A DNA stretch of 64,000 nt, taken from Macrolepiota albuminosa (Eukaryota > Basidiomycota > Agaricomycetes > Agaricales > Agaricaceae). The DNA lies in NCBI GenBank assembly GCA_027475525.1, contig JAMWFC010000113.1, positions 372,001-436,000 of the forward strand, read 5' to 3'. Shown here one piece after another: positions 2,791 through 36,530 of the stretch (its first letter is position 1; each line of letters opens with the position of its first letter). A program made the position numbers and the translations under genes. The notes below the pieces were generated by a model, which saw only the letters and a list, made by a program, of their open reading frames with translations, did not search any database and had not been told where the DNA came from.

Positions 2791-3723
2791 TTCTATTTAA
2801 TGGCTTATGGGCTGGATGAAATGCTACAGCACAGAGATTGTATCAAATGCAAAGCCTGCCCTACATTGAATTAGTGAAGAGGATCATCAAAAACATAGAT
2901 GAGAAAGATTTATAATCTTTCAAAGAAAAATGAAAGATGTGCAAGCATTGATGGGAAAGAAAAATATTGTGGTACAGAATGCTCAAGGCCTGAGCATGTC
3001 AGATGAGAGCGTCACAGTCACTAATGAAAAAAAGCAGCCTACTGCTGCAGTGTTGAGAAGTCATGCTGCTGGAGTGCATACAACATTACCTTTGATCCTT
3101 TCATTAAAAAGCAGCCTACTGCTGCAGTGTTGAGAAGTCATGCTGCTGGAGTGCATACAACATTACCTTTGATCCTTTCATTTTCATTGTCTGAGTATTA
3201 ACTGATCTGGGCATTATTTAGAAACTGGCCTTCAGACTCACTCAATGTGCAAAGCTTTCAAAAGAATCACCTTAATATTATGAGAAATATGATTATGCAT
3301 TTATTGCATCATTAATGTCAGATGATAAAGATAAGTATAATAAGAATGGAAAACTGACCAATCAGTTTATCTCACACTTACATTCATACTATAGTCAGGA
3401 AGCATGTGTCAGTTTTAACTGTCTCAAATAAAAAAAAACTGATCACACCTATTGGTAGATGGCCAATCTCCTTGCTGCTGTTGATGCAGTGCCTGTAAAG
3501 ACCTCCAAATGGTACACAGTTTGCATCTGAGGAGAGCCAATTCATGTACCACTAAAAAAAATCAGGCAAGGTTGAATTCAGGGCATGCTGATAGATGGTC
3601 AATGAGGCATGGCTTTTAAAAGAGGAAAATCAACAGTAGGATCAGGAGACATGAATTGTTAAAAGTGGAAAAGCATGGAAAGACAACAAAAATTCCAAAA
3701 TTATTGCTGCTAAGTGTGAGGAA
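2791..3723. other. non-coding or decayed interior; no gene seen
   Basis: Only short open frames occur (2930-3133 is the longest, and part of it is a 77-bp duplication). The region follows an L2 LTR and may be the dead interior of that element. No domain motif was recognised. Confidence 0.4.
3029..3182. repeat. exact 77-bp tandem duplication
   Basis: 3029-3105 is repeated perfectly at 3106-3182, and identity stops sharply at both ends. It belongs to the set of exact 77-bp duplications described in the findings and is probably an assembly join. Confidence 0.9.
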
Positions 3724-3963
3724 GTGAAACTGACAAAAAAAGCTATGATGACAGAAAAGAAGAGAAAGATATTAGAACTAGATAAAGGTCAGGAGACAAA
3801 GAAGGTGAAGAAGATGAAAGCAAAGAAAGTAAAGTCTAGGAAAAAGAGTAAAGTGCATGACATAGAAGGATCAGCCACTCTTGCTTCTGCTTTGGATGAT
3901 GAGTTGGAATATGATCGAAGTATAAAAATCTGCATATTGTCATTATTTGATCTCATCCAATAG
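3724..3963 (+). pseudogene. lysine-rich ORF fragment
   Basis: An open frame of 79 codons, of which the first two thirds are extremely Lys/Arg-rich (for example KKVKKMKAKKVKSRKKSK), followed by a short acidic segment (DDELEY). The composition resembles a basic nuclear or nucleic-acid-binding tail. It has no neighbours that form a gene model, the flanks contain stops in frame, and the sequence is CpG-poor. I do not recognise it. It may be a scrap of a transposon ORF. Confidence 0.25.
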
Positions 3964-4628
3964 CTCTTCTTTATTCCTGCTCTAGCAAAATGATTAACAA
4001 TCAGATATTAAAGATAACAATGTATACATATATGATCAAATAAAACATGCACCTACAAATCACAGTTCAAAATATGTGATTGAAAAGGAATTGTTGCCAG
4101 TATACTATCAATTTGTAAGACTGGTATGACTTCAGGTTCACTAAATTTATTAGCATAAGTTGTGTAAATCCTGAGTGTTGATGTACTGAAGTTGGTCAAG
4201 CATCAGATAATTGCATAAAGTAGGAAGATGGCAAGAATAGTAATTGAGGGTCTCAGAAAAATAGTAGCAGGTTACTATCACAACATATCTTGTATACAAA
4301 GAGATATATGTGAGGTATTTCATTACCTATTTGAATGGCAAGAATAGAAATAATTTTGGCAGGTTCATGATATCCATCATTCCTGATAATAAATGCTTTT
4401 GAATCAGCTGAGGTTGCTTTATTCTGGATTGATCCATATTGTATGCCATCATTTTTGATGCAAAGCAAGGGATGGCAATATTTGGAGTGATAGAATGAAG
4501 TCTTGTTCATAGTTGTATTGCTGACAAGGTTGAGATGTAGCTAGAGATTCTAGAGGTACTTGAGCATGAAAGTATATGATAAGCCATCTGGAAAGATTGT
4601 AGAGATATTAATCTGTCTTGTTATTTGA
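3964..4628. other. AT-rich intergenic; no gene seen
   Basis: Only short open frames with no recognisable motif (4253-4510 minus is the longest). Confidence 0.4.
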
Positions 4629-4833
4629 CATCACTGCTGATACTAAAAGATGTTTCCATTGGAAAAAGTGTAAAAGAAACATGTCATGCCATTCCAAAGT
4701 GCCAATTTCAGATAGAAAAAGGCATTTTGCTTTGGCCAAGATTTTCTTTCAGAAATTGGCACATGGGAAATGGTATAACATGTTTCTTTTACACTTTTTT
4801 CAATAGAAATATCTTTCAGCACCAGCAATACAT
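4629..4833. repeat. foldback (inverted-repeat) element
   Basis: The two halves are imperfect reverse complements. The left arm runs from about 4629 to 4710, with 'aaaaagtgtaaaagaaacatg' as its centre, and is mirrored by the right arm 4745-4833. The loop is only a few tens of bases. Differences between the arms are mostly transitions. A non-coding hairpin of about 205 bp is typical of a MITE or foldback element. No clear target duplication was found, and the right arm is copied again in the downstream tandem duplication. Confidence 0.65.
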
Positions 4834-5310
4834 GGAAGAGTAACGTTGTTGCCAAGAGATGTCTTGGCACAATAAACAGCAAATTTGATCATCATTCCAC
4901 CTTTCTGTTGTTTCTCTTCATGTTGTTGCCAAGAGATGTCTTGGCACAATAAACAGCAAATTTGATCATCATTCCACCTTTCTGTTGTTTCTCTTCATAC
5001 CAAATAGTCATCTCAATAAGCTTTTGTTGATGGCCAGTGTCAGATAGAAAAAGGCATTTTGCTTTGTTCAAAGATTTTTCTTTCAGAAATTGGCACATGG
5101 GAAATGGTATAACATGTTTCTTTTACACTTTTTTCAATAGAAATACCTTTAAGCACCAACAATACATAGAAGAGTAACGTTGTTGCCAAGAGATGTCTTG
5201 GCACAATAAACAGCAAATTTGATCATCATTCCACCTTTCTGTTGTTTCTCTTTATACCAAATAGTCATCTCAATAAGCTTTTGTTCATGGCCAGTGTCAG
5301 AAGTGTCTGG
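4721..5310 (+). repeat. two-copy tandem duplication, true period about 255 bp
   Basis: The block from 'ggcattttgc' (4721) to 'gttgatggccagtgtcag' (about 5043) recurs from 5053 to about 5300 with scattered substitutions. The apparent period is 332 bp because the first copy contains an exact 77-bp duplication; removing that leaves 255 bp. It includes the right arm of the foldback element. Confidence 0.7.
4845..4998. repeat. exact 77-bp tandem duplication
   Basis: 4845-4921 is identical to 4922-4998, with sharp ends. The second unit of the surrounding 255-bp repeat (from 5176) carries only one copy of this block, which shows directly that the extra 77 bp is an addition. Confidence 0.9.
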
Positions 5311-6335
5311 AAGGAAAAGAAGATACTTATATAATAGGTGCATCATAAGCCAGTTCTACATTATTGTTAGCTCTATGTATCCTCCATCATGACCATTGAG
5401 CTTTACTTTTTCAAACATGCCATTGAATTGCTCAAATGAAAAAGCCACCACTTATAGACTGGACCAAAATTCTCAAAGAATTTTATGTATTGAATCAAAG
5501 CAATAGTTGTTAATTGTTGTGTAAATATTTATTTGCCTGAGCACACAGTTATATTGTGTAAGAGACTCTTATCTAATTTTCACTTGCAACATTAAAATCT
5601 TGCATGATGCAAGTATATGCACACTAGTGGCCAGTTGGAGAGCAGCTTTGTATATAGAATGATATGCTCAATCATGTTGTGAAGAATAAGCAGCATTTGA
5701 AGAAATAGGTGGCTGCCTACTAAATAGTCTATCATTTTTGTCTTGCCATAAAATCCAGAGAATTACAGATGCAATAGCAAATAGTCAACACATCAGCTTT
5801 TTTCAGTGACTGATTTTCTCTGAGCTGTTCACATCATATATTAGTGTTATCTTGAATATAAATGATCAATTTATATCTTTTGATAGTTGTGTGATGGTGG
5901 CTTAGCTACTCAATAGTATTAATGCTAGCCTCTGACTTTTCTCTGACTTTTTTTTTGCAGAGTTGTTGCCTTCAATGCTGGATAGCATATAACACTTGAA
6001 AATGACTTTGTTGAAAAAGTGACTAATAATATTTGTCAAATCATGTGAAAATTGCTTCAGAATACTAATTGCAAGCATAGACCTTGCCAAGAAAGATGTT
6101 ATGCATAAAATCAAGTGCCATTTTTGAACATGAAAGCCAATCCAAACAGTGCTAGTGTTTCCAGTTTCATGTTGAATATCTGTCTCTGATTAATACTACA
6201 TCTGACCATCACTAATGTCTGACATGATACAATCAGGGTTCATATTTTGATTAGATACATGTGACTGTTTCTGAGCAACAGATGCATCAAATCCTGGGCA
6301 TTTGAATATTTGTCAAAGACTTTTAATGATAGAGA
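5311..6335. other. AT-rich intergenic; no gene seen
   Basis: No open frame above about 70 codons, and no motif recognised on either strand. Confidence 0.4.
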
Positions 6336-6825
6336 TGTCAGGGGACTCCTCATTTCTTCCTTTTCTCACTCCTTATCTCTTCACTCTCCTTCCATCCATT
6401 CTCTTATTTCTTCTGACATTATTTCATTTTACTGTTTCTATTCTTTCAACACTATCTGTTAGTACTACTCTCAGCCCTTGAGATGCTCTGGTTCATTCAG
6501 ACAAGTGTGGGCCCACTCAGCACCGCTTCCAGACCGCTTATATAAGCCAGAGTTTGCCAGAGTTTGCCCCTTATTTGTACAAGTATTTGTGTAGGCAATT
6601 TTCGAGTTTTTAAGGTTTTGTTGTACTGTACAGTTGTTTCCCATGCTTCAGAGGCCCCAGAAGCGTCCAACCTGGCATAGGGAATCCCTAGACTTGTTCT
6701 CTTTGGATCTCCCTCTGCCAGGTGAGTAGCTACCTTGATGTTGTCAGTATATATTCTAATACACTTTGGATCTCCCTCTGCCAGCTGTGTGACTGAGCTA
6801 CAGCCTCTAGAGGTCGCCCTTTACT
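6336..6825 (+). mobile_element. solo LTR, family L1, copy A
   Basis: Begins TGTCAGGGGACTCC and ends in a decayed form of GTCGCCCTTACA (last base changed). It is flanked by a perfect 5-bp direct repeat, AGAGA (6331-6335 and 6826-6830). Contains 'gcttatataagc', a TATA-like palindrome. Three more copies occur at 8766-9602, 16104-16602 and 36589-37107. No internal coding sequence is attached, so it is a recombination-derived solo LTR. Strand is arbitrary (TGTCAGG first). Confidence 0.9.
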
Positions 6826-7189
6826 AGAGACCTGTAGTTAAATGAGATTTAGGATATGTACACTATTTTTTACTATGTATATCTGTCTATTACAGTGAAG
6901 TGATATGCAAATGGGCTTATTAAGGGCTTCAAGCTCATCTGATATATGTGATTCCCAGCATAATAGACATATTGCATATGTTCATCAGTGTCAATTCCTA
7001 ATCACCTTCATGTACACTGCAAAGTTTGAACAGGTACAAGTTCTTCAAGAAGCATGCTGGTAATTGTTAGCATATTCAATAATGCATTTAAGTTATTTGT
7101 TGCTTATTCCTATGACAAATGGCTAAAAACAATTCTCAGAACCACTTTAAAGTATGCTATTTGAACATAGGACTTTCTAGCATTGCAGG
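6826..7189. other. intergenic; no gene seen
   Basis: AT-rich with no recognisable ORF or repeat. Confidence 0.4.
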
Positions 7190-7450
7190 AATTGTGTACC
7201 TTGACATCTGATCTTGTCTGTTGATATGATGCTGTGCCAGCAGTCAGAGATATAACAAGCACCAGAAGTCAAAATAAACATTTATTAAGGCTGAAAATGT
7301 AAGCCTTCTGGTAGCAAGTTCTAACAAATTGTATCTCTAAAAGTATTCAAATCAAAATACAGAAAAATACAAAACAGATTAGAGCAAGGACAAACGCAGG
7401 CTATCAACTCAACAATAATCCAGCTACTATTATGGTGAGGGGAAGCATGA
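7190..7450 (-). repeat. dispersed repeat R2, copy 1
   Basis: Aligns in inverted orientation with 36240-36530. Both contain 'gctgtgccagcagtcagaga', 'aataaacatttattaaggct' and 'gtatctctaaaa' in this strand's sense. It is non-coding and may be an LTR or terminal fragment of an unrecognised element. Confidence 0.6.
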
Positions 7451-8088
7451 GGCTGGCAAATCAGGGTAGGGCATCACAATAGTATGTATCATACGTTGTA
7501 TGAAAGCTTGCTTTGTGCTGTATCATATATGTCCAGTGGAGTCTGCTACACTGGAGTGGAGCAGTGCCCACAGTGCCATAGAATACAAAGCTGTGGATGT
7601 GTCACAATGTGCTGTATGACACGGTCCAGTGGATTGATAAAAGGTGGACACACACATGTGCATGCAGGCCCAGCGGATGCCAGTGGACACTAGCAGACAT
7701 CAATGTGCGTCAGCGGCTGCCAGCAGGCATCAGCCCATGAGTGAAAACCTCCTCCATTGGTGGATGTTATGGCATGAATAAACTTCTTGAGGTTCCCCAC
7801 TTCTCTCCCCTCTCCCTTCCTCTCCACAATAACTCAAGGCTGCACGCCTCCCCTTCCCTTCTTTTTCCACCTCTGATGCCAGCATACATCTACAAAAGAG
7901 CCCTGCAGACTTACACAGGCCTATGCAAGCCACTAGCAGACATCCATACAGATGTATGTTGATTGACTTAAATCTACACAGGCCTACACATGCCTGCACA
8001 GGGCACCAGTGGACATCTGCAGAGGCCTACACAGGTCCATGGGGGCTGGTTGGACCAAAAAAAAAAGGTGACTCTGTTTTTCGTATGC

Positions 8089-8164
8089 CTGTGGGGAGAA
8101 ATTGAACCCCCGGTCTTAGAGAAGCCTCCAGCAATGGAACACACATTTAACCATTGCACCACAG
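8089..8164 (-). ncRNA. tRNA-like / SINE-head sequence inside repeat R1
   Basis: On the minus strand a 76-nt stretch begins CTGTGGT and ends CCCACAG, which can pair as an acceptor stem. It has an A box matching TRGYNNARNNG (TGGTGCAATGG) and a B box close to GGTTCRANTCC (GGTTCAATTTC), 42 nt apart. On the same strand it is followed by a run of ten T, a possible Pol III terminator. The anticodon arm does not fold cleanly, so it is tRNA-derived rather than a working tRNA. A second copy lies at 17361-17436. Confidence 0.5.
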
Positions 8165-8908
8165 GTCTGTTACTAATGGATAAATTCAAAGGTTGGATAA
8201 CACAATGAACGGACATTCATCTACGTTTCTGCAGGTCTCTGTATGGATTTTTTGAGGTGGAAGGAGGGTGGCATACCTCCTAAAAGAGTTTTTGTGGCTT
8301 GAAAAGAGTGTTGGCATCAGCAGCCATCAGCTGGCCATCAGCTAGCATCCATCGGAGTTCATTGGCAGCTGTCGTGACCTACTGGCATCTGTTGGCATCT
8401 ATTGTACATCTGTTGGCATCTGCCAGATATCCGCTGATATTCATTGGCATCCATGGAAATCTGTCAGCAATCCTTAGCATTGTCTGGCATCAGGATGGGA
8501 GAGAAGGAAATGGGTGCATGGGCATCTGCCACATAGAGTGGTGTCTCGGAGAGTGTGGGGGTGGCAAAAGAGGGATGGGGGTGGGGAGAAAGAGGGGGAA
8601 GGGGGAAGGGGAGGAGCGTGGATGCTGCTAGTTGCCAGCAAACGTCAGGTCAGAGGGAAGGAGGGAAGTGGGGTGCATGTGGTGGATGGGGGTGGTGTGT
8701 GAGATAGTGTGGGAAGTAGAGAGGATAGCACTGGGGAGAAAGAGGGGGAAGGGTGGAAGAGGGTGTGTAAGGGCGACCTCTAGAGGCTGTGGCTCAGTCA
8801 CACAGCTGGCAGAGGGAGATCCAAAGTGTATTAGAGTATGTACTGACAATATCATAATAACTACTTACCTGGCAGAGGGAGATCCAAAGAGAACAAGTCT
8901 AGGGATTC

Positions 8909-9172
8909 CCTATGCCAGGTTGGATGCTTCTGGGGCTCCTGAAGCATGGGAAACAACTGTACAGTACAACAAAACCTTAAAAACTCCTATGCCAGGTTGG
9001 ATGCTTCTGGGGCTCCTGAAGCATGGGAAACAACTGTACAGTACAACAAAACCTTAAAAACTCAAAAATTGACTAATCAAACAACTGTGCAAACAAAGCA
9101 TGGGAAACAACTGTACAGTACAACAAAACCTTAAAAACTCAAAAATTGACTAATCAAACAACTGTGCAAACA
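8909..9172. repeat. two overlapping exact 77-bp duplications
   Basis: 8909-8985 equals 8986-9062, and 9019-9095 equals 9096-9172. The solo LTR copy at 16104-16602 has each block once, so the repeats are not part of the family's consensus. Confidence 0.9.
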
Positions 9173-9279
9173 AGACAGGAAAATTCCGGACTTTAGAAGT
9201 CAGAAAGGCAAACTCCAGCTTATATAAGCGGTCTGGAAGCAGTGCTAAAGGGCCCACACTTGTCTGAATGGTAGCTAAA

Positions 9280-9537
9280 GAACCAGAGCATCTCAAGGGC
9301 TAAGAGTAGTACTAACAGATAGTGTTGAAAGAATAGAAACAGTAAAATGAAATAATGAACCAGAGCATCTCAAGGGCTAAGAGTAGTACTAACAGATAGT
9401 GTTGAAAGAATAGAAACAGTAAAATGAAATAATGTCAAAAGAAATAAGAGAATGAATGAATAGTACTAACAGATAGTGTTGAAAGAATAGAAACAGTAAA
9501 ATGAAATAATGTCAAAAGAAATAAGAGAATGAATGAA
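9280..9537. repeat. two overlapping exact 77-bp duplications
   Basis: 9280-9356 equals 9357-9433, and 9384-9460 equals 9461-9537. The corresponding parts of copies A, C and D are single. Confidence 0.9.
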
Positions 9538-9691
9538 GGGAGAGTGAAGAGATAAGGAGTGAGAAAAGGAAGAAATGAGGAGAAATGAGGAGTCCTCTGA
9601 CAGGGTGCGTGAGTATCTGCTGTCTGCTGGCATGCCAGCAGACGGTAGCTGACGTTGGCATGTAAGCCAGCTGACATCAGTGGTGCAACCA

Positions 9692-9768
9692 GTCCCAGTA
9701 GTTCAGTGGAACATTTGTTTATTGATATTCAATATTGTGTACAGCAGTGGGTTCTACTCCTCCTACTC
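9692..9768 (+). ncRNA. tRNA-derived SINE-like unit 1
   Basis: A box TAGTTCAGTGG at 9699-9709 and B box GGTTCTACTCC at 9750-9760 are spaced as in a tRNA gene. The sequence between them is AT-rich and has lost a proper anticodon arm. Three related units follow within 1 kb. Confidence 0.5.
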
Positions 9769-10159
9769 TACCTTAATAGGGTCTAATGGTATGTTTTTAT
9801 ATAGGTGCATTTTTGCTCTACATATACATCGTACTGACTTGTAGTAAGTGCCTGTGGTAGTTGATCCGACTACAACTCTAGAAATTACTGAAGCAGGATA
9901 GGATGGAGGAATTTGCACATGTGATCATTTCAGTGCACATGATAAGTGACGATACACCAGGGCTGGCTACCTTTTTTACAAAGACCAGCACAAACATAGC
10001 CAGCCACAGTGTATTATCAACTGGTCATGTGCATTGAAATGAATACAAGCACAAATTCATCTATCTTATGCCACTGCAAAAATCTCTGGAGTTTTGAACA
10101 GATCAAATTTATAACACTAGCAGATGTCAGCAGCCTGCTGTGATTATATAATATGAACT

Positions 10160-10235
10160 AGTGGGAGTCAAACCCACTTCTTGTGCACAATATAAAATAT
10201 CAATTTATGAATATTCCATTGTACCACAAGCACTT
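10160..10235 (-). ncRNA. tRNA-derived SINE-like unit 2
   Basis: On the minus strand, A box TGGTACAATGG (10227-10217) and B box GGTTTGACTCC (10174-10164). Flanking 'gtggga'/'cccact' can form part of a T stem. The unit is otherwise decayed. Confidence 0.5.
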
Positions 10236-10277
10236 ACTACAAGTCAGGACAGTGTTCATGTAGTGCACAAATGGACC

Positions 10278-10431
10278 TATACAGAATTTGAATGGATAGA
10301 GAATTTACTGCAACTGGTGCATCTGTATTGAATTGACAATATTAGACTGATATTTATACAGAATTTGAATGGATAGAGAATTTACTGCAACTGGTGCATC
10401 TGTATTGAATTGACAATATTAGACTGATATT
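10278..10431. repeat. exact 77-bp tandem duplication
   Basis: 10278-10354 is identical to 10355-10431, with sharp ends. Confidence 0.9.
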
Positions 10432-10527
10432 TATTTACATCATAGAAGTATACAGGAAAGAGGAAAACCATGGAGTGTAGCGGAATATTAGACTGATATT
10501 GATTTACACCATAGCATTATACAGTAA

Positions 10528-10605
10528 GCATCTGTAGTGTAGTGGAATATTTCCAATTAGTATTTCTTGTATCTTGCAATAGGTGGGTTCGACTCCTCTT
10601 AATGC
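10528..10605 (+). ncRNA. tRNA-derived SINE-like unit 3
   Basis: A box TAGTGTAGTGG (10535-10545) and a perfect B box GGTTCGACTCC (10586-10596). It is followed by a tail 'aatgcattgacatcaaactg' that is also present after unit 4, so a shared 3' body exists beyond the tRNA-like head. Confidence 0.55.
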
Positions 10606-10689
10606 ATTGACATCAAACTGTCAAGAATTTTTGACCACACACAGAATATTAGACTGATGTTTATTTAGACCATAGCAGTATACAGTAAG

Positions 10690-10765
10690 CATTGATGGTC
10701 TAGTGGAATATTATCCATTGGTATTCATTGTGTCTTGCAGTAGGCAAGTTCAATTCCCACTAATG
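10690..10765 (+). ncRNA. tRNA-derived SINE-like unit 4
   Basis: A box TGGTCTAGTGG (10696-10706), resembling tRNA-Glu/Asp heads, and B box AGTTCAATTCC (10747-10757). It is followed by the same 'aatgcattgatatcaaactg' tail as unit 3, about 160 bp downstream of that unit. Confidence 0.55.
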
Positions 10766-10949
10766 CATTGATATCAAACTGTCTGGAATTTTTGACCTGC
10801 TTAGCTAATTGTTATTTACTAAACTGTAAGATAAACAAAGTAAGGTTTGTCAAGCAATAAATAAAACTTCTTTTGTAATTTAAAAAGGGTTACATGATAT
10901 TTATTTTCAGAACTTGCTTCATGTAAAGTTCTTGTCCGTTTCTTTAATC

Positions 10950-12882
10950 CTCCATCTGCCATGTCTAATAAAGAACTTCACCAATAGATCATTAACATGG
11001 ATGTTCAAGTATTATACCTTGCTCTCAGAGGAGACCTGCATCAACTCAAAGCACAGCAAAAGGACCTAGTAAGATGCAAGCACTTCTGCCTAATAGACAT
11101 GCACTAATAGTCGTCCTGTAGATTGACATGTGGTTGATGGTTAGAGAGGTCAAGGATGACAAGAAACTCCTCCTTGATGCTAGGAGAAGTTCCATCAACA
11201 AAGTTATCCCACTACTCCAGAGCAAGCTTTCTGATGAGGATATGACCAGGTGATTGAAGGACACTGTAAAGAAATGGACCCAGAGGAGCGGAAGGGGGGA
11301 AGAACCAAGTGGGGGTGAAGAATGACCTGATCTATTGACCAAGGCTGGTCCATCGATGGCACCAGCATGAGAAGACCAGATAGGTCATAGGCTAGCAGCA
11401 GGAAATTTATCTGGTCTGTCACCAATTCTGAAGAAGAGAGAACAACCGAGTCCTCCAGTGGCAGGAGATTTGTCTGATCTGTTGCCAAATCCCAAGCAGC
11501 CAAAATGGATAACCTATATTAGTCAATGTCCTTCTGGTATCTATTGTTGACAGAAGAAGCAGGAGGATGAGGATGAGGACAAGGATGAAAAGAAAGAGAA
11601 AGAGGAAGAATAAGAGGGCAAGATACCAAAGGGGGAAATTACTGGAAAGATGCTGTTAGGCAGGTATCTGAGGACAGCACCTTGTCACAAGGCTCAGCAT
11701 ATCAACCCCCCTTGCCAATATTGCACAAGTAAGCAGCTACAGTGTGTCAGGACAAAGGGCAGCACCGCATGCAATCCCTGCCAGCTTATTCACAAACGAA
11801 CATGCAGCCTGACAATTGTCAAGAAAACCATCAAGCCTGGCAACAAGGAAAAGGGAAAAAAACAACTGAGAAAGAAGTCAGTGACGATTATTGAGAGTGA
11901 TGACAGTATGAAACTCTTTTCCTGCTCAAAATAGCTAACCAAGTCAGGACAAAGGGTGGCACCACATGCAATCTCTGCCAGCTTATTCACAAACAAACAT
12001 GCAGCCTGACAATTGTCAAGAAAACCATCAAGCCCAGCAACAAGGAAAAGAGGAAAAAACTACTGAGAAAGAAGTCAGTGACAATTATTGAGAGTGATGA
12101 TGGTATGAAACTCTTTTCCTGCTCAAATAGCTAACCAATAGTTAGCAGATGAACCAGCCAGTCCAATCACAGGACCATCAAAACCGTCTGTCCATCCATA
12201 TCAACCATCAACCTCCAACTATCCAGTGGATCCTCTTTTGGTCAAGAAAAAGGGCAAGGAGCAGGCAATGGAGTCTAGTCACAGTGAGGACATTGTGGCT
12301 GGTGTAATGGCAGGGGTGGAGAGCTGTTTGGACAGGATGTAGAATGGGTTCCAGAAAGCATTGTGGAATGTTGGGGAGCAGGTGCAGGACAGGTTTGTCA
12401 TGGCTGAGGAGAGCTAGTTACCGTATATTGAGGACTTTTTCTGTTGCTATCAGACTTAAGTCAACACGCTTGGTGGCTGCATAGAAACCCTGCAAACCAA
12501 TGTTTCTCTTGCAGGTGAGACACTTGCATCCTATGACAGACGGATTCATCAGACAGAAGAGCAGATCTGCCATATTTGGGGTATGATTAACACTTTGCAG
12601 AGTTGACTTCACATCTCCACCCGTCCCTTCAGTCCATCAGCTCAGGATAATGTGGCAGTGCATCCAACAGGGCACAGTGGACTTGGACCCATTGTTAAAG
12701 AGAAAGAAACCACTCCTGACCCTACTGCTGACCAATCCCCTGCCACTGCTGACGTATCTGTTCCCACTGGTGACACTTCTGCTCTTGCCACTGACCAATC
12801 CCATCACGCCACTGACTTATCCGCTCTCACCGTTGCTCCATCCCCACTTCAACAAATATCCTCAGAGATATCTTCTGCATGA
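10950..12882 (+). pseudogene. decayed ORF with Cys-rich cluster and Lys-rich linker
   Basis: Fragments in alternating plus frames read as one protein. They comprise a helical Lys/Asp-rich part (about 11120-11270), acidic-basic repeats near 11570-11620, then a cysteine cluster at about 11690-11810 with spacing C-x2-C, C-x8-C, C-x2-C and C-x7-C (in part CQYCTSKQLQCVRTKGSTAC). A Lys-rich segment follows, and finally a Pro/Thr-rich repeat tail (12652-12882). Several stops, many at former CpG sites, interrupt it. The cluster resembles DNA-binding zinc clusters, but the family is not recognised. A retroelement-associated ORF is likely, by composition and neighbourhood. Confidence 0.45.
11747..12133 (+). 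repeat. tandem duplication, 197-bp period, inside the Cys-cluster ORF
   Basis: 11747-11935 recurs at 11944-12133 with about a dozen substitutions, several of them CpG decay (for example 'accgcatgc' against 'accacatgc'). Being diverged and of a different period, it is a genuine old duplication, unlike the 77-bp set. Confidence 0.8.
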
Positions 12883-13117
12883 ACATCTCTATCACTCCCT
12901 CAACCATCTTCTATCCCTCTGCCAGTCCCTGCCAAGGACCCTTTTCCTGGCCCAAGGAGATAGGCTTGCAGCAACTCCCAAAGTAGTCAGCTACCAATGC
13001 AATGGATCCAATCATCCAATTGGCTTACTGAAAGATGGAAGGCAACAGAAAACAAGTGAAGATGGACGGTTGATTACTTCACAGTGATTTTTTTTGTTAT
13101 GATAGACATTGACATTG

Positions 13118-18035: not shown

Positions 18036-18039
18036 TCTA

Positions 18040-21480: not shown

Positions 21481-21482
21481 CA

Positions 21483-22610: not shown

Positions 22611-22902
22611 AACAATAGCCTTCAGTAGAGGTGTACCTTATCACTTTATTCATCTGCCTTGGCTACCGCAAATTGAGAATTTACAATAAGTTGCATGAGA
22701 AGAATTGTATTAAGTTCTGATTCAACTTAGTCATGCAAGCACAGCTGCTAAATATAACTTCTGTGTATATAACTTTAACAGTTCTTTAGTGTTACTTTTA
22801 AAATAATAAAATGTAATAGAGTTAATTTTTTAAAATGGGCAGAATGATAGATGATTTTTCTATATAGTAATAAATGGCTACAATAAAAATATAATGCATA
22901 TC

Positions 22903-25309: not shown

Positions 25310-26740
25310 AGGTGGTAAGCTATCTAAGTGTCTGGACCTACTATTGCTTACACAAGCATCTGACAGTCCAATGAATCATATGATGGCAAAAATTGAAGAC
25401 ATTATTCGCACCCTAACACAGGCTACTGCTTACTAAATGTCCAGACCTACTACTGCTTACTAAGTGTCTGGACCTACTATTGCTTATACAAGCATCTGAC
25501 AGTCCAGTAAATTACATGACAGCAAAAATCGAAGACATTTTTCCCACACTGACACAGGCTACTGCTTACTAAGTGTCTGGACCTACTATTGCTTACACAA
25601 GCATCTGGCAGTCCAATGAATCACATGACAGCAAAAATTGAAGACATTTTTCTCTGGACCTACTATTGCTTACACAAGCATCTGGCAGTCCAATGAATCA
25701 CATGACAGCAAAAATTGAAGACATTTTTCGCACACTGACACAGGCTACCGCTTACTAAATGTCCGGACCTACTACTGCTTACTAAGTGTCTGGACCTACT
25801 ATTGCTTATACAAGCATCTGACAGTCCAATAAATCACATGACGGCAAAAGTTGAAGACATTTTTCGCACACTGACACAGGCTACTGCTTACTAAATGTCT
25901 GGACCTACTACTGCTTACTAAGTGTCTGGACCTACTATTGCTTATACAAGCATCTGACAGTCCAATGAATCACATGACAGCAAAAATTGAAGACATTTTT
26001 CGCATACTGACACAGGCTACTGCTTACTAAATGTCCAGACCTACTACTGCTTACTAAGTGTCTGGACCTACTATTGCTTATACAAGCATCTGACAGTCCA
26101 GTAAATTACATGACAGCAAAAATCGAAGACATTTTTCCCACACTGACACAGGCTACTGCTTACTAAGTGTCTGGACCTACTATTGCTTACACAAGCATCT
26201 GGCAGTCCAATGAATCACATGACGGCAAAAATTGAAGACATTTTTCGCACACTAACACAGGCTACTGCTTACTAAGTGTCTGGATCTACTATTGCTTACA
26301 CAAGCATCTGGCAGTCCAATAAATCACATGACAGCAAAAATCAAAGACATTTTTTGCACAAGCATCTGGCAGTCCAGTAAATCACATGACAGCAAAAATC
26401 GAAGACATTTTTCATACACTGACACAGGCTACTGCTTACTAAGTGGCAGTCCAATAAATCACATGACAGCAAAAATCGAAGACATTTTTCGCACAAGCAT
26501 CTGACAGTCCAATGAATCACATGACGGCAAAAATTGAAGACATTTTTCACATACTAATACAGGCTGCTGCTTACACAAGCAATTCAGATAGACGAACAGT
26601 CTGATAAATCACATGACAGCAAAAATCGAAGACATTTTTCCCACACACCTACCTCAGCCTCAGGACAAAAATCAACAACAACAATCAAAATCACATGACG
26701 GCAAAAATTGAAGACATTTTTCCCACACATAGTCTGCTGC
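25310..26740 (+). repeat. minisatellite array of about 14 units
   Basis: The words 'cagtccaatgaatcacatga' and 'gaagacatttttc' recur about fourteen times in fixed order, with 'tactgcttactaagtgtctgg' between most of them. Spacing is mainly about 136 or 108 bp, with shorter truncated units at the 3' side. Units differ by single bases. It is non-coding and fully inside the insertion in the NLR gene. Confidence 0.85.
25577..25730. repeat. exact 77-bp tandem duplication inside the minisatellite
   Basis: 25577-25653 equals 25654-25730. The join creates an abnormally short unit with no 'tactgcttactaag' linker, unlike neighbouring units. Confidence 0.8.
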
Positions 26741-26773
26741 ACAGAAAAACCTCGATCTATTCTAGATCTCGGA

Positions 26774-27414
26774 ACCCAGTTAGTGTGACCATTCAACTCC
26801 TGCAGCTGTGCACCACTGGAGACATCCCACACTCTTACAGACTTGTCACCTAAACCAGAGACAATGCTCTTGCCATCAGGTGAAAATGCAACAGATGTGA
26901 CATGGTCAGTGTAACCATTCAACTGCTGTAGTTGTACACCACTAGAGACATCCCACAATCTTATAGACTTATCACCTGAGCCAGAGACAATGCTTTTGCT
27001 ATCAGGTGAAAATGCAACAGATGTGACCTGGTCAGTGTGACCATTCAACTCCTGTAGCTGTACACCACTAGAGACATCCCACACTCTTACAGACTTATCA
27101 CCTGAACCAGAGACAATGCTTTTGCTATCAGGTGAAAATGCAACAGATGTGACCCAGTCAGTATGACCATTCAACTCCTGCAGCTGTGCACCATTAGAGG
27201 CATCCCACATTCTTACAGACTTATCACCTGAACCAGAGACAATGCTTTTGCTATCAGGTGAAAATGCAACAGATGTCACCTGGTCAGTATGACCATTCAA
27301 CTTCTGCAGCTGTTCACCCCTAGAGGCATCCCACACTCTTACAGACTTGTCAGCTGAGCCAGAGACAATGCTTTTTCCATCAAATGAAAATGCCACACAT
27401 AATACTAAGTCCAT
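26774..27414 (-). pseudogene. NLR WD40 cluster 1 (five repeats)
   Basis: Five 42-residue repeats begin at VLCVAFSFDGKSIVSGSADK and end at LNGHTNWV, where coding meets the 2.36-kb insertion. Spacer residues at repeat junctions are DQ, DW, DQ, DH and NW. Together with cluster 2 this gives 15 repeats, enough for two seven-bladed propellers plus one. The first repeat has FSFD instead of FSPD, as expected for the divergent first blade. Confidence 0.85.
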
Positions 27415-27508
27415 CTGCAGTATACAAATTCTGAGCCAGAGACAATGCTTTTTCCATCAAATGAAAATGCCACACATAATACTAAGTCCATCTGCAGTAT
27501 ACAAATTT
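27355..27508. repeat. exact 77-bp tandem duplication in the first WD repeat
   Basis: 27355-27431 equals 27432-27508. It duplicates part of the first WD repeat and its upstream linker and shifts the frame, because 77 is not a multiple of three. Confidence 0.9.
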
Positions 27509-28054
27509 TTGCCAAAGTAGTTTTTTTATTACCTGTAATAGATGGAATTCTAGAAAACGTTTTTTTCCAATTATGTAATATTGGGCTGTTTACTGGCCAT
27601 GCTGCTAAAGCTGAAATATATAGATGTGGTGTTGACAAAGCTGCTGGACTTAATGCAAAGTTAGCAGCAAAGTTGGCTATTTCAATAATACCTTGTATGA
27701 GAAATGAATTATCATAAATATTTTGCTGTTATAAATTTAGCTGTGAACAAAATTTGTATTAGAGCTATTCACCTTTTTAATAATATCACAGACTTTTTGA
27801 AGCATCAAATGGCATTCTTTAGATAGTTTCAGTAAATTCATTGCTTCTATCCAAAAAAGAATTTTAATATCAAGAAAACTTTCTATTTGTAACTGGAGAT
27901 TTTGGTACTTGTTAGTTGCAGCCTTAATAAAATGTCCAGCCCAGTATTTACAAGCATACTGTAGCACTTCTGAGATTTTCTCTTTAACACAATTTTCCAG
28001 GTTGGTGACTTCTGAATCCAACAGAAATGATGAAGGCATGTTGCATATATCAAA

Positions 28055-28208
28055 GTGGAGATCTCTCATCATTATGTTGAAGCAATGAGAAGCAAGCAAT
28101 GCATGATGAGATGTTGCATCACAAGACATATGTGGAGATCTCTCATCATTATGTTGAAGCAATGAGAAGCAAGCAATGCATGATGAGATGTTGCATCACA
28201 AGACATAT
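28055..28208. repeat. exact 77-bp tandem duplication in the NLR helical region
   Basis: 28055-28131 equals 28132-28208. It duplicates a CDATSHHALLASHCFNIMMR-encoding block and causes a frame change. Confidence 0.9.
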
Positions 28209-28876
28209 TCTTTATATAATTTGAAGAGACATGCAAAGATCTCAAAGAAATTCTAGATGCTTGTATATAATTCATGATAAAATCTGGAAAAGAAGCATGA
28301 TACCAGAAAACATGACCTTCTTTTTTATAAAGAACAGCATGAAGCTTTTGTACAATATCATCAGCTTGCTGCTTGAGAATTTCTATATTTTTTGTGTTAC
28401 ATTTAGAATGAAGTCCTGCAGCAACAGAAGTAGATATACAATCTTCTGCACAAAGAATAGTGTGCAAAATTTCCAAGCGATCAGCAATAAAAATTTCTTC
28501 ACTTGTACTAAATGCATCAGACAATATTTGGCAATATAAGTTGTTGATTAATACTATTGCACTAGGAAGATATGAGAATCTTATATCAATTGTAAAGTTA
28601 AGCAGCTTTCTCATTAAAATCTGCTTTTCTTCTGGAGTTCCTGATGATATGTATTTTACAGCTGTTGAAGCATAAATAAATAAACAATTTGCTTTATTAC
28701 CAAGCTCTCGAAGTTCTGGCTTATTTACAAAATCTGGAAGTTTTGCATTCAAATATGTCATAATATCCATATCAGCATCTTCAGAAGGAATATTCTGAAG
28801 ATAACAAACTGAATCAGATGAAAAAGACTTGCACAGTTCTGCAAGGTCAGGATCTGGTCGACTTGTTACAAGAAAC

Positions 28877-29455
28877 TTAAGACCTTTCAATCATAATAAG
28901 TAATTGTTTGAGAAATTCTGAGCCTCCTTTGTTTTCAACTTCATCCAAAGCATCAATCACAATAAGATATGGTGGTAGATTAGAAGAATAACTAGTCATA
29001 ACTTCTTTCCAAGGATTTACTAACAAATTTTGCATTTGTTTCTTTAAATCCTTGTTAACTGAATCTTTATCTACTTTTTGAAAAGACTTGGCAAAGAACT
29101 GTGAATGACAAGCAAGCTGATAAACAAGAGTAGGAATGATGTTTTTTTGGCTTTGTGTATCTTCAAATTGCCTAGAGCAAAAGAAACTAGCCTGCAATAT
29201 TTGCAATACATTATTGCCCTCTTCAAAATCTTGAGCTATAGTATAAGCAATTGTTGATTTTCCAGATCCTGCATGACCAGTCAGCCAAAAAACCTGTGGA
29301 CTACTATCTGATGTATTTTGAGCCCAATTGCTAATTTTTTTAAGAATTTCAACACGTGTTCCTGGTGTGCATGGTTGACGAGACAATGTTTGCACATCAT
29401 CAGAATTAGCATCATATATAGCTCTGTGAGCATGGGGCCAGCCAGACAATTTCAA
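28877..29455 (-). pseudogene. NLR NACHT domain exon
   Basis: Contains Walker A GHAGSGKST about 65 residues in, preceded by the typical QVFWLT strand, and Walker B LIVIDALDE about 110 residues later with acidic DE. The usual entry sequence HAHRAIYDANSDDVQTLSRQ precedes it. The next frame (28890 down) continues with the sensor-1-like LKFLVTSRPDPDL. The switch between frames near 28880 is a single-base indel, not an intron, since no GT...AG is available there. Nucleotide-binding residues are intact. Confidence 0.85.
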
Positions 29456-31253
29456 TTTCTAAAGCTCTAATAAATACACATTATATCAAAGTGCTTTTCA
29501 ATAACTTACTTCAAGTAGTTTTTGTGATTCACAAACATTTTTATCAATTTTTAACATTAATATTGACTAAAAAAAAGCATGTTAAAACTTTAGCAAAATA
29601 GTTGTATAAATATCCATGCCTGAAAAATATTTGTTTGATCATTGATATAATTGATAATGTGGTTTATTTTTGACTTGTTTTCTTCACTGTTCATAGTTTT
29701 GCTAAAACCAGACTTTTTTGACATTTCCACAAGTTCTTCAAATTTATCATTCAATATTCTGCAATATATATTAACTTAAAGAAAATAAGAACAACATTAA
29801 ACCTACTTTACAAAGCCTTTTATAACATTGTTCAAGTCTGTATTTTCATCATTGATACTTGTTAGAGCATTAAGAAAGTCTCTGATTCTTGCAAGCTGAA
29901 GATCAAGCTCATCATTGTTATTAGAAACAGCCTATAACTACTTTTAATATATATATCACAAAAAACACAAACAAACTCACATTTATCAGCTCCATAAAAG
30001 CATTAAAAGATGCAAAAGGAACTTGAAGTGGAATTCCAGATAATGATTTGTCAACCTTCTTGAGCAAGAGCTCAATGCCATTCAAAGCTGTGTGAAGTCT
30101 ATCCTTTATCATAATGTTTAAACTATGGTCTCTGGCAGAAGATGCCTGAGATATAGCTAAACTACCATCATGACTTCCTCCTTCAGTAAAAATTCATTAG
30201 TACCACTGTATATATATATATAAATCTGGTGAAATGTATCATACCCAATTCATTGGTGGAAGAAGCATTGATCTGAGAGTTCATGTCAACTATAATGCCC
30301 CTCATTCAGTTATTAAGATTGGTAGATCACTTGAATAAAATTACCTGATGTCACACATCCTTTCCCAGTTGATACAGCATCAGATTGACCCATATTGGTA
30401 AAAGCTTGAATTGTGAAACAATTATTATGATTCTTTGCAGTATGAATAATCATCAATCACTGACTGGTACTTGTCAAATGTGTGTTAACTTGAGATGCTT
30501 GCACAACACCTTCAGAAGCGGTCACTTTCAAAAACGTGAAGCATAAGAGGCACATTTCATACTCACTGTTTCCTTGTACTGTAGACCCAGCTGTGTCGGC
30601 AGGGATAGATGAGGTATCTTCACTGGTTGTCCCTTTTGAGATCTGTTCAGGCCCACAATGACAGATGAAATGGACTTGACACTCACTGAATCCAGTGTCT
30701 TCTCTGTTAGTTGGCGGTGCGGCCAATGAAGGCATGGAGGCAGAGACTTGGGTGCACATTGAGACACCCGGACCTGGGCAGCGAAGATGCATGTATGCCT
30801 ACCTGTATTCATCGGGCCTGACAAGAACGAAAGTTGACTCGGAGAACCATTTCCGGGTACACGACGAGAATCTGCTGCGAGAAAAACATTCGGGACATTG
30901 ACTTGGGTGCCTGCAGTACGACGCCTGAACATTGAACGAAACCTTTGAATAATTCGTTGCCGCCTTGAAGAGGGCTTGCTGTCTTGCTGAGGAGTAGACA
31001 TATTCAATGAGTAATAGAGCGATAAGGTGCGGGGAAAGATAGACAACAGTAGAATACGGTTGCCCCGAGTACATGTCAGTCTAGCCATTTTTATGCATAA
31101 GCTCAATATGTCAAGACTAAATCACAAGTGGACAGCCTTGGGCCAACTGACTTCATGCTGTTACCAGATCGAGCTTGTCATTCTCTCACAGCACACAAGA
31201 ATTCAATAGTACTCGCTTCAGATCATCAATGCTACAGATCTCATTTCCCCCTT

Positions 31254-31592
31254 CTATTGAACTCCTCCGTTCACGTATACCAAGAACCTCACAGCCATAA
31301 TAATTACCAAGCCGGCCATATAGCCAATATCACGACAAATAGTCCCGATCGAGCGCCAAGCGATGAAACATACTGTCAGAATTATTAGCTGACAAGGCCC
31401 TAGAGTGTGAATTTCGTAACGCGAGCCTCCTCGCAGACTTCGACCCTGCCAACGATCGATTCCGCCACCGCCCTCGCAGACGTCCTGCGCACCATACAGC
31501 TGTGTCGTGGCACCCCTGAGGGGCTCCGGCACCTGCAAGGGTAACGCAAAGGACACGACGACATCACGCACATTTGTCATCGGCGACTCCAT
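31254..31592 (-). other. possible small gene or fragment between the NLR and ATG18 copies
   Basis: CpG-retaining stretch open for 112 codons on the minus strand. It has a hydrophobic C-terminal third (CQLIILTVCFIAW and YMAGLVIIMAVRFLVYV), which could be two membrane segments. It contains an intron-like GTGCGTGATG...CTTGCAG near the start. The plus strand is also partly open in the same place (DSATALADVLRTIQLCRGTP) with a possible 3' splice site at 31644-31664. I cannot decide the coding strand and recognise neither product. Confidence 0.25.
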
Positions 31593-31879
31593 GCATTTGG
31601 CGCCATCGCAGCGGGAAATAACGTGTATTATCAGGTGCGTACTGGTTTTTTTCTCAGCAACACGTCATTGAAAGGGCATAGTCGCAGCGCACAACGTTCT
31701 TCGGCTCATCCACAGAGCGTAGCGAGGCAGCTGCTGGTTCTCATTTCCATGAACGGCGCACCCCGAGCACTTATTTCCCATTGTACATGTGGTTCATGTC
31801 GTCGGTGCCTCCTCCGAAGTGGTCTCGAACATGATCGGAACGTGTCAAGAGGGTTGTCATAGTAAACTACCTGTTTAGT

Positions 31880-34023
31880 GAGTACGCAACGAGGAAGAGT
31901 TGATGGACTAATGCAACATACCTTCAATCCCTTGATGAACTTCATTGGCGTCATCATCATTCGAATGGGGACCTCTTGAATCATCTTGTCTTTGGGAAGA
32001 GGCATCGTCATCATTTTGGTGGTTTCCTCTTGCATAACCCTTCCAGGAAGATCGAAAATGCGTTGGTAGAGCACTATCCTGCTGTGAGAACCGACCATGC
32101 CTGAAAAAGATGTGGTGAGGGGTAGTTCCTCAGACGTCACGAATCACCTACACTTGCGTGCTTCCATCCTCCTGTAAGACATGGTCTCTTCTTGCTGGAA
32201 CTATACTGCTTCATCAACTGGCACTCGTCACCGCTCCCCAAATCGATACTATACGAGTGAAAGTATCCTTCCGACAAGGCGACCATCACGTGTGGAGTCG
32301 TCCTTAGCATCAGCACGAGCAAGCGAACAAGTTAGTCAACATTTATACAGAGGTCGTTATTACACGCACGGGCTAAGGGCGACAATACAGCGTGTGCCGT
32401 GCGTCGGGAGACATAGAAAGGCAAAATCTCGTGCAGGCTCCCAGAGCTCTGTGAGCGTTGTGGGGAGGTACCTGCTCATGGAGTGTGTGAGTGATTTGGT
32501 GACTTGTATAGATTTGCGTCGCAGGCTTGAGGTGTAGTGAGATTAGATGAGATGAGATTGAATTAGATTAGATTAGATTATGAGAGGAGAGAGGAGGGAC
32601 GCAGGAAACGCTTAGAGCGGATTTCTTGTCGATAAAGGTGTCGTAGCCTGTGTCTCTGTTGTCCATAGAGTCGGATTCTGTAGGCGGGCTCGCAAATTGC
32701 GATGGAGACTGGGACTGCGGGCGCTGCGGGCCGAGCTTGAAAATATGTACGGTATCGTGTGCAGAACTGACAGCAAGGAGTGTAGACATCGAGTTAAAAT
32801 TGAGATAATATATACATGCTTTGCGTGTGCTACGGCGGAACTGGTAAAGCTTTTCGGCGGCGGGGACGCTCCAGACGCAGATGACGGTGCCTTTGTCGGA
32901 GGCGGTTGCGAGGAGGGTGCCGGTGGAGTTTAGAGAGAGCAGGGAGATGGGGGACTTGTGTGCGCGTACGACGTTTGCGACGGTTAGAGAGCGAGTGGAG
33001 AAGAGGAGGACGTCGCCGGTAGGGGGCGGGCCGGCAGGGGCAGGGAGCGAGGACGGCGAGGGCAGTGGGGCGGGGTAGGCGAGGTACGAGTTGTCGGCAG
33101 AGGGAGAGAGGGCGCAGATTGCTGGGAAAAGTCAGCGCGGGCGGAGAGGGAAGCGGGACACGGACCGTCGGGGTTGTTGGTTGTTTCGATGACATGGAGC
33201 AGACGCATGTTGGAGATGTCGTAGATGTAGATTTCAGCAGCGAGGACAATGACAAGAGTCTTGCGGTTCATCTTCACGGCGAGAATGGACGACGGGAACA
33301 GCAACTCGCAGATCATCGATTGGCGCTGTGGCCGTCAGCGTAGGCAACTTGGACAACGGCGAAGACAGACCTTGGTGTTGACAATCTGAAGCTTGCGTGG
33401 GCTCTACTCTGGCTGGTCGGCGGCACCCACGAGCGCAAGGAGCGACGTGCAGAAGAGCATTTCGACGATACCACGCGCGCCGTCGTCTGCAGAGTGTCAG
33501 CAGCGCACTCGCAGCGGGCACAGACGCACTCATGGTGTACACGCGGCCGAACGGGTCGCAGTTTGTGATGCTGTATCCCGTCCGTGTCCCCACAGAGATG
33601 CAGCTGCAGCACCGTCAGCACCGCCCTCTCTGTGCAGCGACCACATACTATTCCACCCCTTTAGCTCGGAGTCCCCTCTGAGTCGGATGTCACGAAGGCG
33701 TCACACCTTAGTAAGATGCACTCTGCTGCACTGTAAAGAAGACCGAGATGCAAGAGAACTTTAGACTCCGCCTTGCCGCTGAATCGGCAGGCGTGACAAC
33801 TGGCTTGACCATTCACCACCAAGGGACTCAGCAACGAGACCTTGTCTCACCCCTGGACTAAGTTGTGAACACATTAGGTATGTTATTTCACATTGTATGT
33901 CTTGTTTGAAGTGCTTAGGATGGCTGGTTGTGGCAAAACATTGTTTTGTCTGACTCAGAGGGGACTCCGAGCTAAAGGGGTGGAATAGTATGAGAAATCC
34001 TGGTTAAAGTTGGTGAACAACAT
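31880..34023 (-). pseudogene. ATG18: ATG18 (PROPPIN WD-repeat autophagy protein), broken copy 1
   Basis: Spliced minus-strand pieces read NFNQDF (exon 1, ATG at 34023), [98 protein letters not shown] and a last blade with SEGYFHSYSIDL (about 32200). This is the Atg18/WIPI seven-bladed propeller, which binds PI3P and PI(3,5)P2 through an FRRG loop in autophagy. Defects: FRRG is FRRS (GGC to AGC), a TAG stop follows ADQPE (TCG to TAG, near 33405), and the exon-1 splice donor is lost where a MITE is inserted. Much CpG is retained, so the copy is fairly young. A working paralogue must exist elsewhere. Confidence 0.8.
33648..33988. mobile_element. 341-bp MITE with 37-bp perfect TIRs, TA target
   Basis: 33648-33684 is a perfect reverse complement of 33952-33988 (CTATTCCACCCCTTTAGC...). 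The element is flanked by TA on both sides (33646-33647 and 33989-33990), the Tc1/mariner-type target duplication. The second ATG18 copy (near 56936) lacks the insertion and shows the empty site. The interior is non-coding. It sits at the exon 1/intron 1 junction of ATG18 copy 1. Confidence 0.9.
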
Positions 34024-36239
34024 CAGTCCATGGGAAGTTGCCGCTGATCACTATCTCCATATCAACAAACTCGCATGCTTGAGCTTGTTCATATCTGAAT
34101 GCCTGTTGTCTGAATTTCAATGGTTATTGCTGCTCCTGGGTGCCTCCCCTGCTCCATTTTCACCTTCGATGTAAGGGCCCTTGCTCTGGGGGGCTCTTTG
34201 ATCTGTAACCACCAACCATGTGTGGTTGCAAAAGCTTTTCAGAATATTCAGACAGGCTGGTCAAAACTCAGCTGATACTCTCTAGTCAAGTTGTTGTGAT
34301 AGCCAGATCAAGACTAGCTCCTCAGTAATAAGGAGTTATTCATTGGTGAGGCTAAACACCCAGGGCATGGAACTAATATCAATCAGCTGGGGCTTCTTTG
34401 AATTGGAATAACACCCACTCTGCACACAATGCAAGAGGTACAAAGGGAAAAGGACAAATTATGCAGCAAAATGCCACCTCCCATAAAGGATAGAGATTTG
34501 AATCCTACTGAGAGGTCCCACCCTAAAGAGCATGATAAGGGACACCAGTCTGAATACTTTGCAATGGAATTCACCATCCAGCTCATGTAAGGTATCAGTC
34601 ACAGATAATAATCAAATGAAGGTGACATATTTTCCAGGAATTCAGGTACATAGCACTTCCTGGTCTTGGCCAAGCTTGCAACAGAAACTCACACTGATGC
34701 AAATTTATAAGTTTACTTGTAAACTAAAAGTAGCCTTAAAAAAATAAGACTGGACTTTTATTATAAGTCAACTTTATTCACCAAGATCATGGCGCTCTGT
34801 TATGCATGTGCACACTTTATAATAGTGGTATATAAAACTTAAAAAGTACACTCAAAAATGGGCCAAACAGTATTATTACTAATCCAAAGTCAATTCTAGG
34901 TGCTTGTAGGCCTAAGTAGTCTGCTCTCTTGAGACACCAAGCTGTGGCAAGTGAATTGCTTGCTCAGCCTCTCCAAATCACCACTCTCTTTATACCCTTC
35001 TACTCTATACACAGACCATGACCTATTCATGTATTTATCCATTGGTTTGTCATGCTTTACATGCCTGAGCATTACTAGCACCTGGCTTCATGGCTAAAGG
35101 TTGGTTCATCTTTTCTCTGACTGAGTCTGCCATTACTTCTCTTCTTCCCTACCCTTCCTGTCTCTTCTTCTTTCTGGATTTTCCTTGTTACTGCCTATGT
35201 GTTTGTTGTGTGGCTCATCATGCTCTGTGCATGTGATAGAAGTAACTGAGGAGCACTTTTTCATGGGAGGTGAGGTGATGGCAGGTTCTTTGCATGATCA
35301 TGATTGATTTGCTTGCTGTCCTTGGAGACATCAAAGAAAGCATTTCAAAGATGCAACTTCCCATTAGAAATGATGAATGCAGACTCTGGCACTGGAAGTT
35401 CTCTGGCTACTTGATGGCAAGCCTCATCAGTTAAACAGGTACAAGGGACAGCTTCTTATGCATGCTTGACTTTATGAGGAAAAACTTTATCAGCAGATGA
35501 CAATTGTTGACCCACTGCAGGTGGGTTGCCATAGATTGTGCAAGCAGGAGGAGGAACCCTGGCCTCTGTGGTCTCTCCCATGAAAATGCAGGTGCATGTT
35601 CCTGAGAAACTTCCACATGCAGAAATTAAGGAGCTTGATACTCAGGTCTATGTAATGGTGATGCAAAATTTCTATCAATTCCAGGACAAAGTAGTGAATG
35701 AGACCTCACCACAGGATGCTCAGTGTTGGGGAGTGCAGTTGGACCTATTCCAAAACCATGTCTCTGGATTGCTTGAAGGTGTGCCTGTAAGGCTAAGGAT
35801 GTGTGAGCTCAGATAAAAGAAGCCTGAGATAGAAAAATGCTTTCTTGTGATGCAAAATTGTAACAGAGCAATGCCTTGACCAGCCAAGGCATAATAAGCC
35901 TCAAATAAGGCAAACCAAGTGCCAAATGTCACAATCCAGGTCTAATAAGCTAAAGACAAGCATAATAAGCACTCACAGCAGCCAAGGAGCTGAAAATTGC
36001 ATCATAAGCCCAAAGACAGGCAGAATACACCTTAGAAGTGGCACATCAAGCCAAGGACAGGCATATTAAGCTCCTCTTCATTCATCCTTCTTTTGTACCC
36101 TTCTTCTATTCATCAAAACATTCCAATCTGGTCATTTCTAGATCAGATCTTCTATTGATCTAGATCATTTCAGATTGATGCCAATCTACTTCATTTGCCA
36201 GCCCCATGCTTCCCCTCTCCATAACAGTGGCTAGACTAT
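34024..36239. other. intergenic; weak short frames and degenerate repeats
   Basis: 34024-34190 is probably the old ATG18 5' flank. 35538-35816 holds a 92-codon plus frame (MQVHVPEKLPHAEIKELDTQ) that I do not recognise. 35880-36080 contains four or five degenerate words of the type 'aagccaagacaggcataataagc'. 36085-36215 is the inverted match to 18040-18260. No supported gene. Confidence 0.35.
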
Positions 36240-36530
36240 TGTTGAGTTGGTAGCCTAAGTTGGTCCTTGCTCTAAACCATTCTGTATTTTCTGTATTTTT
36301 ATTTGGGTATTTTTAGAGATACACTTTGTTGGAACTTGCGTCCTTGCTCTAAACCATTCTGTATTTTCTGTATTTTTATTTGGGTATTTTTAGAGATACA
36401 CTTTGTTGGAACTTGCTATCAGGAGGCTTACAGTGTTCAGCCTTAATAAATGTTTATTTTGACCTCTGATGCTTGTTATGTCTCTGACTGCTGGCACAGC
36501 ATTGTATCAGCAGTAGTGAGATAATAATGA
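36240..36530 (+). repeat. dispersed repeat R2, copy 2
   Basis: Inverted relative to 7190-7450, sharing 'agccttaataaatgtttatt' and 'tctctgactgctggcacagc'. As in copy 1, an L1 solo LTR lies within about 400 bp. Its first part carries an exact 77-bp duplication. Confidence 0.6.
36263..36416. repeat. exact 77-bp tandem duplication
   Basis: 36263-36339 equals 36340-36416. The inverted R2 copy at 7320-7440 has the block only once. Confidence 0.9.

Follow-up and report, generated by a model that had tools for sequence, protein, structure and literature searches.

Exact 77-base tandem pairs in a Macrolepiota albuminosa contig are almost certainly untrimmed assembly overlaps

The window, meaning the whole 64,000-nt stretch analysed here, corresponds to C106:372001-436000 (contig JAMWFC010000113.1) of the Macrolepiota albuminosa assembly GCA_027475525.1, in which C106 is a 3.43-Mb contig and the total is 100.1 Mb in 129 contigs. 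Among 120 listed of 3458 similarity hits, the top named ones belong to Termitomyces (57-59% identity), followed by Tephrocybe (51%), Hebeloma and Sphaerobolus and, lower in the ranking, Blastosporella, which makes an agaric fungus likely. A segmental duplication of ~37 kb occupies window 1250..38447 and matches C106:207641-244134, ~165-171 kb upstream; its right end falls within the DNA examined, and its left limit is simply the limit of that DNA. The main matches (window 1250-5319, 23130-24381, 26774-29694 and 35099-38447) are 93.6-99.9% identical, and around 8.5-10.5 kb the identity, judged from coordinates only, is 87-89%. The duplication could be real, or it could be a second haplotype placed in the same contig. 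Within it lies a NACHT-WD40-type gene, in which Pfam places NPHP3_N/NACHT in 28880-29458 and WD40 in 26587-27456, with no Pfam match in the frame 28075-28890. At least ten close paralogues of this gene were found, eight on C106 (C106:228229-846978) in addition to C41:57773 and C90:3035117, and near-identical 126-base WD40 repeats occur among them. To the right of the duplication, window 39500-46924 is retroelement-like, with reverse transcriptase and integrase motifs recognised by eye and frames of 1170 and 1303 aa; it holds none of the 77-base pairs described below.

Scanning the window at periods 10-999 (run of at least the period minus 3 and at least 15) returned 12 exact tandem pairs, all of period 77. 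The only further row was at 59085, where an AT-rich array has period 28. A sequence-only reading had listed twelve perfect period-77 duplications here; all twelve are present and exact, ten of them with the starts it gave and two (25576 and 27354) beginning one base earlier. All 12 fall inside the segmental-duplication span, ten in the compared parts and the pairs at 21289 and 25576 outside those parts, a distribution that fits the clustering of pairs in the window. Out-of-phase pairs probably account for part of the lower identity at 8.5-10.5 kb. The same reading had placed every case before 36.5 kb, which is true of the window, but further pairs flank it on both sides (L012, L014, L015 and L016), starting again beyond its end in L015 and L016.

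Single-copy relatives were found for ten of the twelve blocks, 27354 being counted on alignment coordinates. The pair at 3029..3182 has a paralogue at C106:209141+ that carries the 77-mer once and departs from the window exactly at its end, continuing with 1,114 bases absent from the window before the right flank resumes; this extra DNA holds two 77-base pairs of its own. For 4845..4998 the paralogue (C106:212241-212365) is single, the copy being C106:212241-212319 with two overlap bases attributable to alignment slack, and identity starts exactly at the start of the 77-mer. Similarly, the pair at 36263..36416 is single at C106:242037-242113, 77 bases common to both flanks, with the identity edge exactly at the 77-mer start. 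At the end of the WD40 array, both copies of 27354..27507 align to C106:228559-228635, coordinates that suggest the unit is carried once there.

The pair at 28055..28208 lies within the NACHT-WD40-type gene and is single in 10 of the 10 close paralogues listed; these number at least ten, are 79-89% identical in the left part, and have exactly 77 bases in common between their two flanks, corresponding to one copy. In the paralogues L050, L051 and L052 an open frame of 552, 552 and 358 aa, respectively, runs through the site, the shorter frame of L052 stopping near a 77-base pair of its own (L052:3125). In the window the same frame is split into two overlapping frames, 28075-28890 and 27740-28195.

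Four pairs, 8909..9063, 9019..9173, 9280..9434 and 9384..9537, lie within one copy of one repeat family, 9019 starting 110 bases past 8909 and 9384 starting 104 bases past 9280, so that 8909 overlaps 9019 and 9280 overlaps 9384. The earlier description of the duplicated sequences as unrelated needs qualifying for these four. The first three have matching runs of 78. Each is single in other copies of the repeat in the window: near 6.6, 16.2 and 36.9 kb for 8909, near 6.6 and 16.3 kb for 9019, near 6.5, 16.5 and 36.7 kb for 9280, and near 6.4, 16.5 and 36.7 kb for 9384, with shared stretches of 72-82 bases since the repeat copies differ by small indels. Some relatives appear doubled, as in L016, which carries 77-base pairs in this family. 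In the segmental paralogue C106:215156-216282 the alignment breaks at the 9019 junction only, and this paralogue may be doubled near 8909, 9280 and 9384.

The pair at 10278..10434 (run 80) is single on C44, C47, C77, C107 and C106:1921871-1922435, and that at 21289..21442 belongs to a repeat family in which 18 of the 42 matches listed terminate at q313-316, no more than 3 bases from where copy 1 ends. The shared match ends point to an LTR end as the probable family fork at 21289, a block for which the comparison gave no single-copy relative spanning both flanks. The pair at 25576..25729 sits within an array of 136-base tandem repeats, in which no comparator was assessable. Because several relatives of 21289 and 10278 aligned ungapped, an inherited real duplication was considered at these two blocks and rejected, the pairs being out of phase. 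Five of the six such relatives examined (L056-L060) each hold their own exact 77-base pair: those of L056-L058, related to 10278, lie in other phases, and those of L059 and L060, related to 21289, are shifted by 4 and 1 bases, each of their two copies showing letters specific to the locus. In L061, the sixth, the match extends no further than the end of copy 1. Thus, within one repeat family the pairs differ in phase and their length is always 77. Best-match listings place doubled copies at the top because these align without a break, and hence give an unfair sample of relatives. The claim that a second copy of a repeat carries the block once is accordingly borne out for 8909-9384 and 36263 in the window and for 3029, 4845, 10278, 28055 and, by inference, 27354 elsewhere; it does not extend to those relatives of 10278 and 21289 in which a separate 77-base pair sits in another phase, or to the apparently doubled relatives of 8909-9384.

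A pooled census of exact tandem pairs with periods of 30-1000 covered 345,189 bases, a sample of the 100-Mb assembly rather than its entirety, which included 20 stretches of 10 kb from C106 together with 20 shorter ones, of 2 kb, drawn from as many further contigs; for this census and the fork test below, L001, L002, L049 and L053, which overlap other records, were left out and L055 was trimmed. A run of 100 N occurs in two of the 20 C106 stretches. Period 77 accounts for 61 of the 62 exact pairs, the remaining one having period 50; eight of the 61 come from loci fetched by similarity, five of these eight in pieces picked for looking doubled. A chance origin is excluded by this count. The sequence-only reading had predicted a spike at 77, and each sampled set of stretches shows it, over 345 kb of the 100 Mb in all. 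The matching runs of 77, 78, 79 and 80 bases number 33, 16, 10 and 2, against 34.3, 17.2, 6.4 and 2.1 expected from chance matches of adjacent bases, and therefore the unit is 77; in the window, the four longer runs (78, 78, 78 and 80) are likewise as expected from chance identity.

The 20 C106 stretches contain 39 further exact pairs. Density is 29 pairs in 150 kb over the 15 spaced C106 stretches, a set that includes L011, picked for its paralogue, versus 2 in 40 kb on the 20 other contigs. Exact pairs also occur in pieces of C41, C94, C53, C16, C92 and C6, and alignment coordinates indicate a doubled 77-base stretch on C124. L018 is the densest stretch; most of it duplicates parts of L028 at 96-99% identity, and some stretches do so at 84-90%. 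L027 is also dense in pairs and has no near copy among the DNA examined. Over the seven records with more than one pair, successive starts are at least 104 bases apart, as compared with the minimum of 78 that such a graph would permit, in line with joined pieces that are never shorter than k+1.

An ungapped scan of all DNA examined added six pairs at period 77 with one mismatch and found no pair with 60 to 75 matches of 77; one further pair, L018:1677, has two one-base deletions in one copy, which suggests later polishing with error-prone reads. This pair occupies the same position in L028:4322, a near-identical locus. Diverged tandem repeats do occur at other periods (81, 92, 114, 161 and 197), and no near-exact pairs (at least 85%) were detected at periods 33, 54, 55, 75, 76, 78, 79 or 127 in the window and L002-L028. 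The restriction of period 77 to exact and one-mismatch pairs, with no intermediates, is unlike an ageing population of real duplications, and would fit a few edits by a polisher.

When the nodes of a de Bruijn graph are 77 bases long, a piece comes to its end wherever sequences sharing a 77-mer differ at the next base, and therefore the identity around a shared duplicated 77-mer should stop at one of its edges. It does so exactly in 14 of 17 duplicated blocks, compared with 51 of 2701 ordinary 77-mers lying outside the blocks, the latter sampled every 7 bases and thus not independent. These 17 are the exact pairs, among the 61, whose 77-mer recurs elsewhere in the DNA examined, the comparison leaving 44 aside; L056 and L057 serve as each other's comparator, as do L018 and L028, and these rows are not independent, and the match of L012:4719 lies inside its own locus, beside the pair. 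Blocks with an extension allow several phases, and a stricter count restricted to blocks without extension gave an edge in 6 of 8, versus 4 of 67 after the 77-mer was slid 1-40 bases either way. The clearest case is 3029, where the extra DNA of the paralogue starts right at the end of the 77-mer. For the three blocks without an exact edge, the fork-defining sequence may lie outside the 345 kb. The fork positions link the unit to 77-base nodes of the graph and are hard to obtain by any cellular process. Among the records used, L004 and L005 (C90:1708975 and C90:1472652) are 3.4-kb stretches 236 kb apart that have nearly all tested 77-mers in common.

These observations bear unequally on the processes that could double a short sequence. 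Replication slippage or unequal crossing-over has in its favour the tandem arrays found here (the 136-base, 126-base WD40 and 197-base arrays, all with real divergence), but it yields many lengths and a spread of copy divergence; the sampled spectrum instead has a lone spike at a single period, with 61 of 62 exact pairs of one length and only exact or one-mismatch copies besides the one pair with two one-base deletions, and we give this origin almost no weight. Target-site duplications left by a departed transposon would agree with the position of several pairs in or beside repeats, and with the extra DNA of the 3029 paralogue having its left edge exactly at the 77-mer end. However, that extra DNA belongs to the paralogue, where the 77-mer is single; in the window the two copies are directly adjacent and do not flank an element; a gene, repeats and an array all hold pairs alike; and the target-site duplications known for LTR and DNA elements are far shorter than 77 bases. 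This origin, too, has a negligible probability. A real fungal process making fixed 77-base tandem duplications in unrelated DNA, for example by filling in cuts staggered by 77 bases, would account for the constant length, the perfect copies and the relatives doubled near the same place, and is nonetheless extremely improbable: the pairs are placed where other copies diverge, which cutting at one locus could not know, the 28055 pair is absent from all 10 of the close NACHT-WD40-type paralogues listed, and period 77 has no ageing series, although diverged repeats exist at the five other periods. A cellular process that duplicates exactly 77 bases where repeat copies diverge, such as repair of a fixed-size recombination intermediate at the borders of heterology, seems to us just as extremely improbable.

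The remaining question concerns the kind of artefact. The pairs are almost certainly an assembly artefact in which de Bruijn pieces were joined without trimming their 77-base overlap, as the sequence-only reading had proposed; the period spike and the fork positions uphold that proposal, and the main observed support consists of the constant length, the occurrence on many contigs, the single-copy relatives (10 of 12), the fork positions and the split gene frame. Against it stand the pair common to L018:1677 and L028:4322, as expected of a real duplication, the relatives of some blocks that carry pairs near the same spot, the three of 17 blocks that lack an exact edge, and the six one-mismatch pairs and the one with two deletions, which untrimmed overlaps alone would not yield and for which a later polishing step must therefore be assumed. 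Another artefact of the same length, whether a gap closer or polisher inserting a 77-base anchor or a graph program besides SPAdes, is rather unlikely. The one-mismatch pairs do suggest later editing of the sequence; the fork positions, conversely, bind the unit to nodes that are exactly 77 bases long. SPAdes has K=77 among its defaults, and a program with odd k whose pieces overlap by k-1 would leave an even number. An overlap equal to the odd K of SPAdes would fit the length, and SPAdes run with K=77 is likely to be behind the pairs, as judged from the unit size.

Under the untrimmed-overlap reading, short reads would have been assembled into a de Bruijn graph in which adjacent pieces share a 77-base end (K=77). 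Where near-identical stretches part, at the edge of an insertion, at a site where the copies of a duplication or repeat differ, or presumably at an LTR end, the graph would fork and the pieces would end in the 77-mer of the fork. A later joining step would then have kept the shared 77-mer from both consecutive pieces, leaving it present twice, and the few pairs whose copies differ by one mismatch or in homopolymers would stem from subsequent polishing. Some starts are only 104 and 110 bases apart, and therefore some of the joined pieces barely exceed k. For the joining step itself we favour a graph path written edge by edge, or contigs joined, without trimming the 77-base overlap of each link; it looks like more than the placing of long contigs end to end.

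A literature search gave no direct match for a report of the same fault, and three precedents come nearest. PMC5923482 describes 127-bp artificial overlaps at SPAdes contig ends, likewise a perfect doubling where assembled pieces end; there the contigs are from phage and the length is 127 bp, whereas here the duplicates lie inside large contigs, recur, stand between neighbours and measure 77. The same SPAdes contig-end overlap is dealt with by Unicycler (PMC5481147), in which such overlaps are stripped so that each contig leads straight into its neighbours, a removal step that seems to be missing here at many joins. In PMC2864568, false segmental duplications by mis-assembly include 'duplicated overlapping contigs', where overlapping contig ends are also retained twice; those are attributed to haplotype differences, have a median identity of 98.1% and vary in size, in contrast to the identical 77-base copies here.

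The 77-base pairs hold no biological novelty and are a quality warning for gene models. Extrapolated from the sampled densities, their number in the 100-Mb assembly would be 5,000 to 20,000, a very rough figure, and the untrimmed-overlap fault can be screened for cheaply by searching for exact pairs that all have a single odd length. In the window the pairs sit in recent duplications and repeats, where young transposons and fast-evolving NACHT-WD40 genes are usually sought. A pair within an exon breaks the frame because 77 is not a multiple of three, with false pseudogenes or false introns as a possible outcome; at 28055 the doubling makes the gene look broken. The same gene has a second break at 28877-28890, between the NACHT frame (28880-29458) and the next (28075-28890), with no 77-base pair there, and at this point L050 and L051 keep one open frame of 552 aa.
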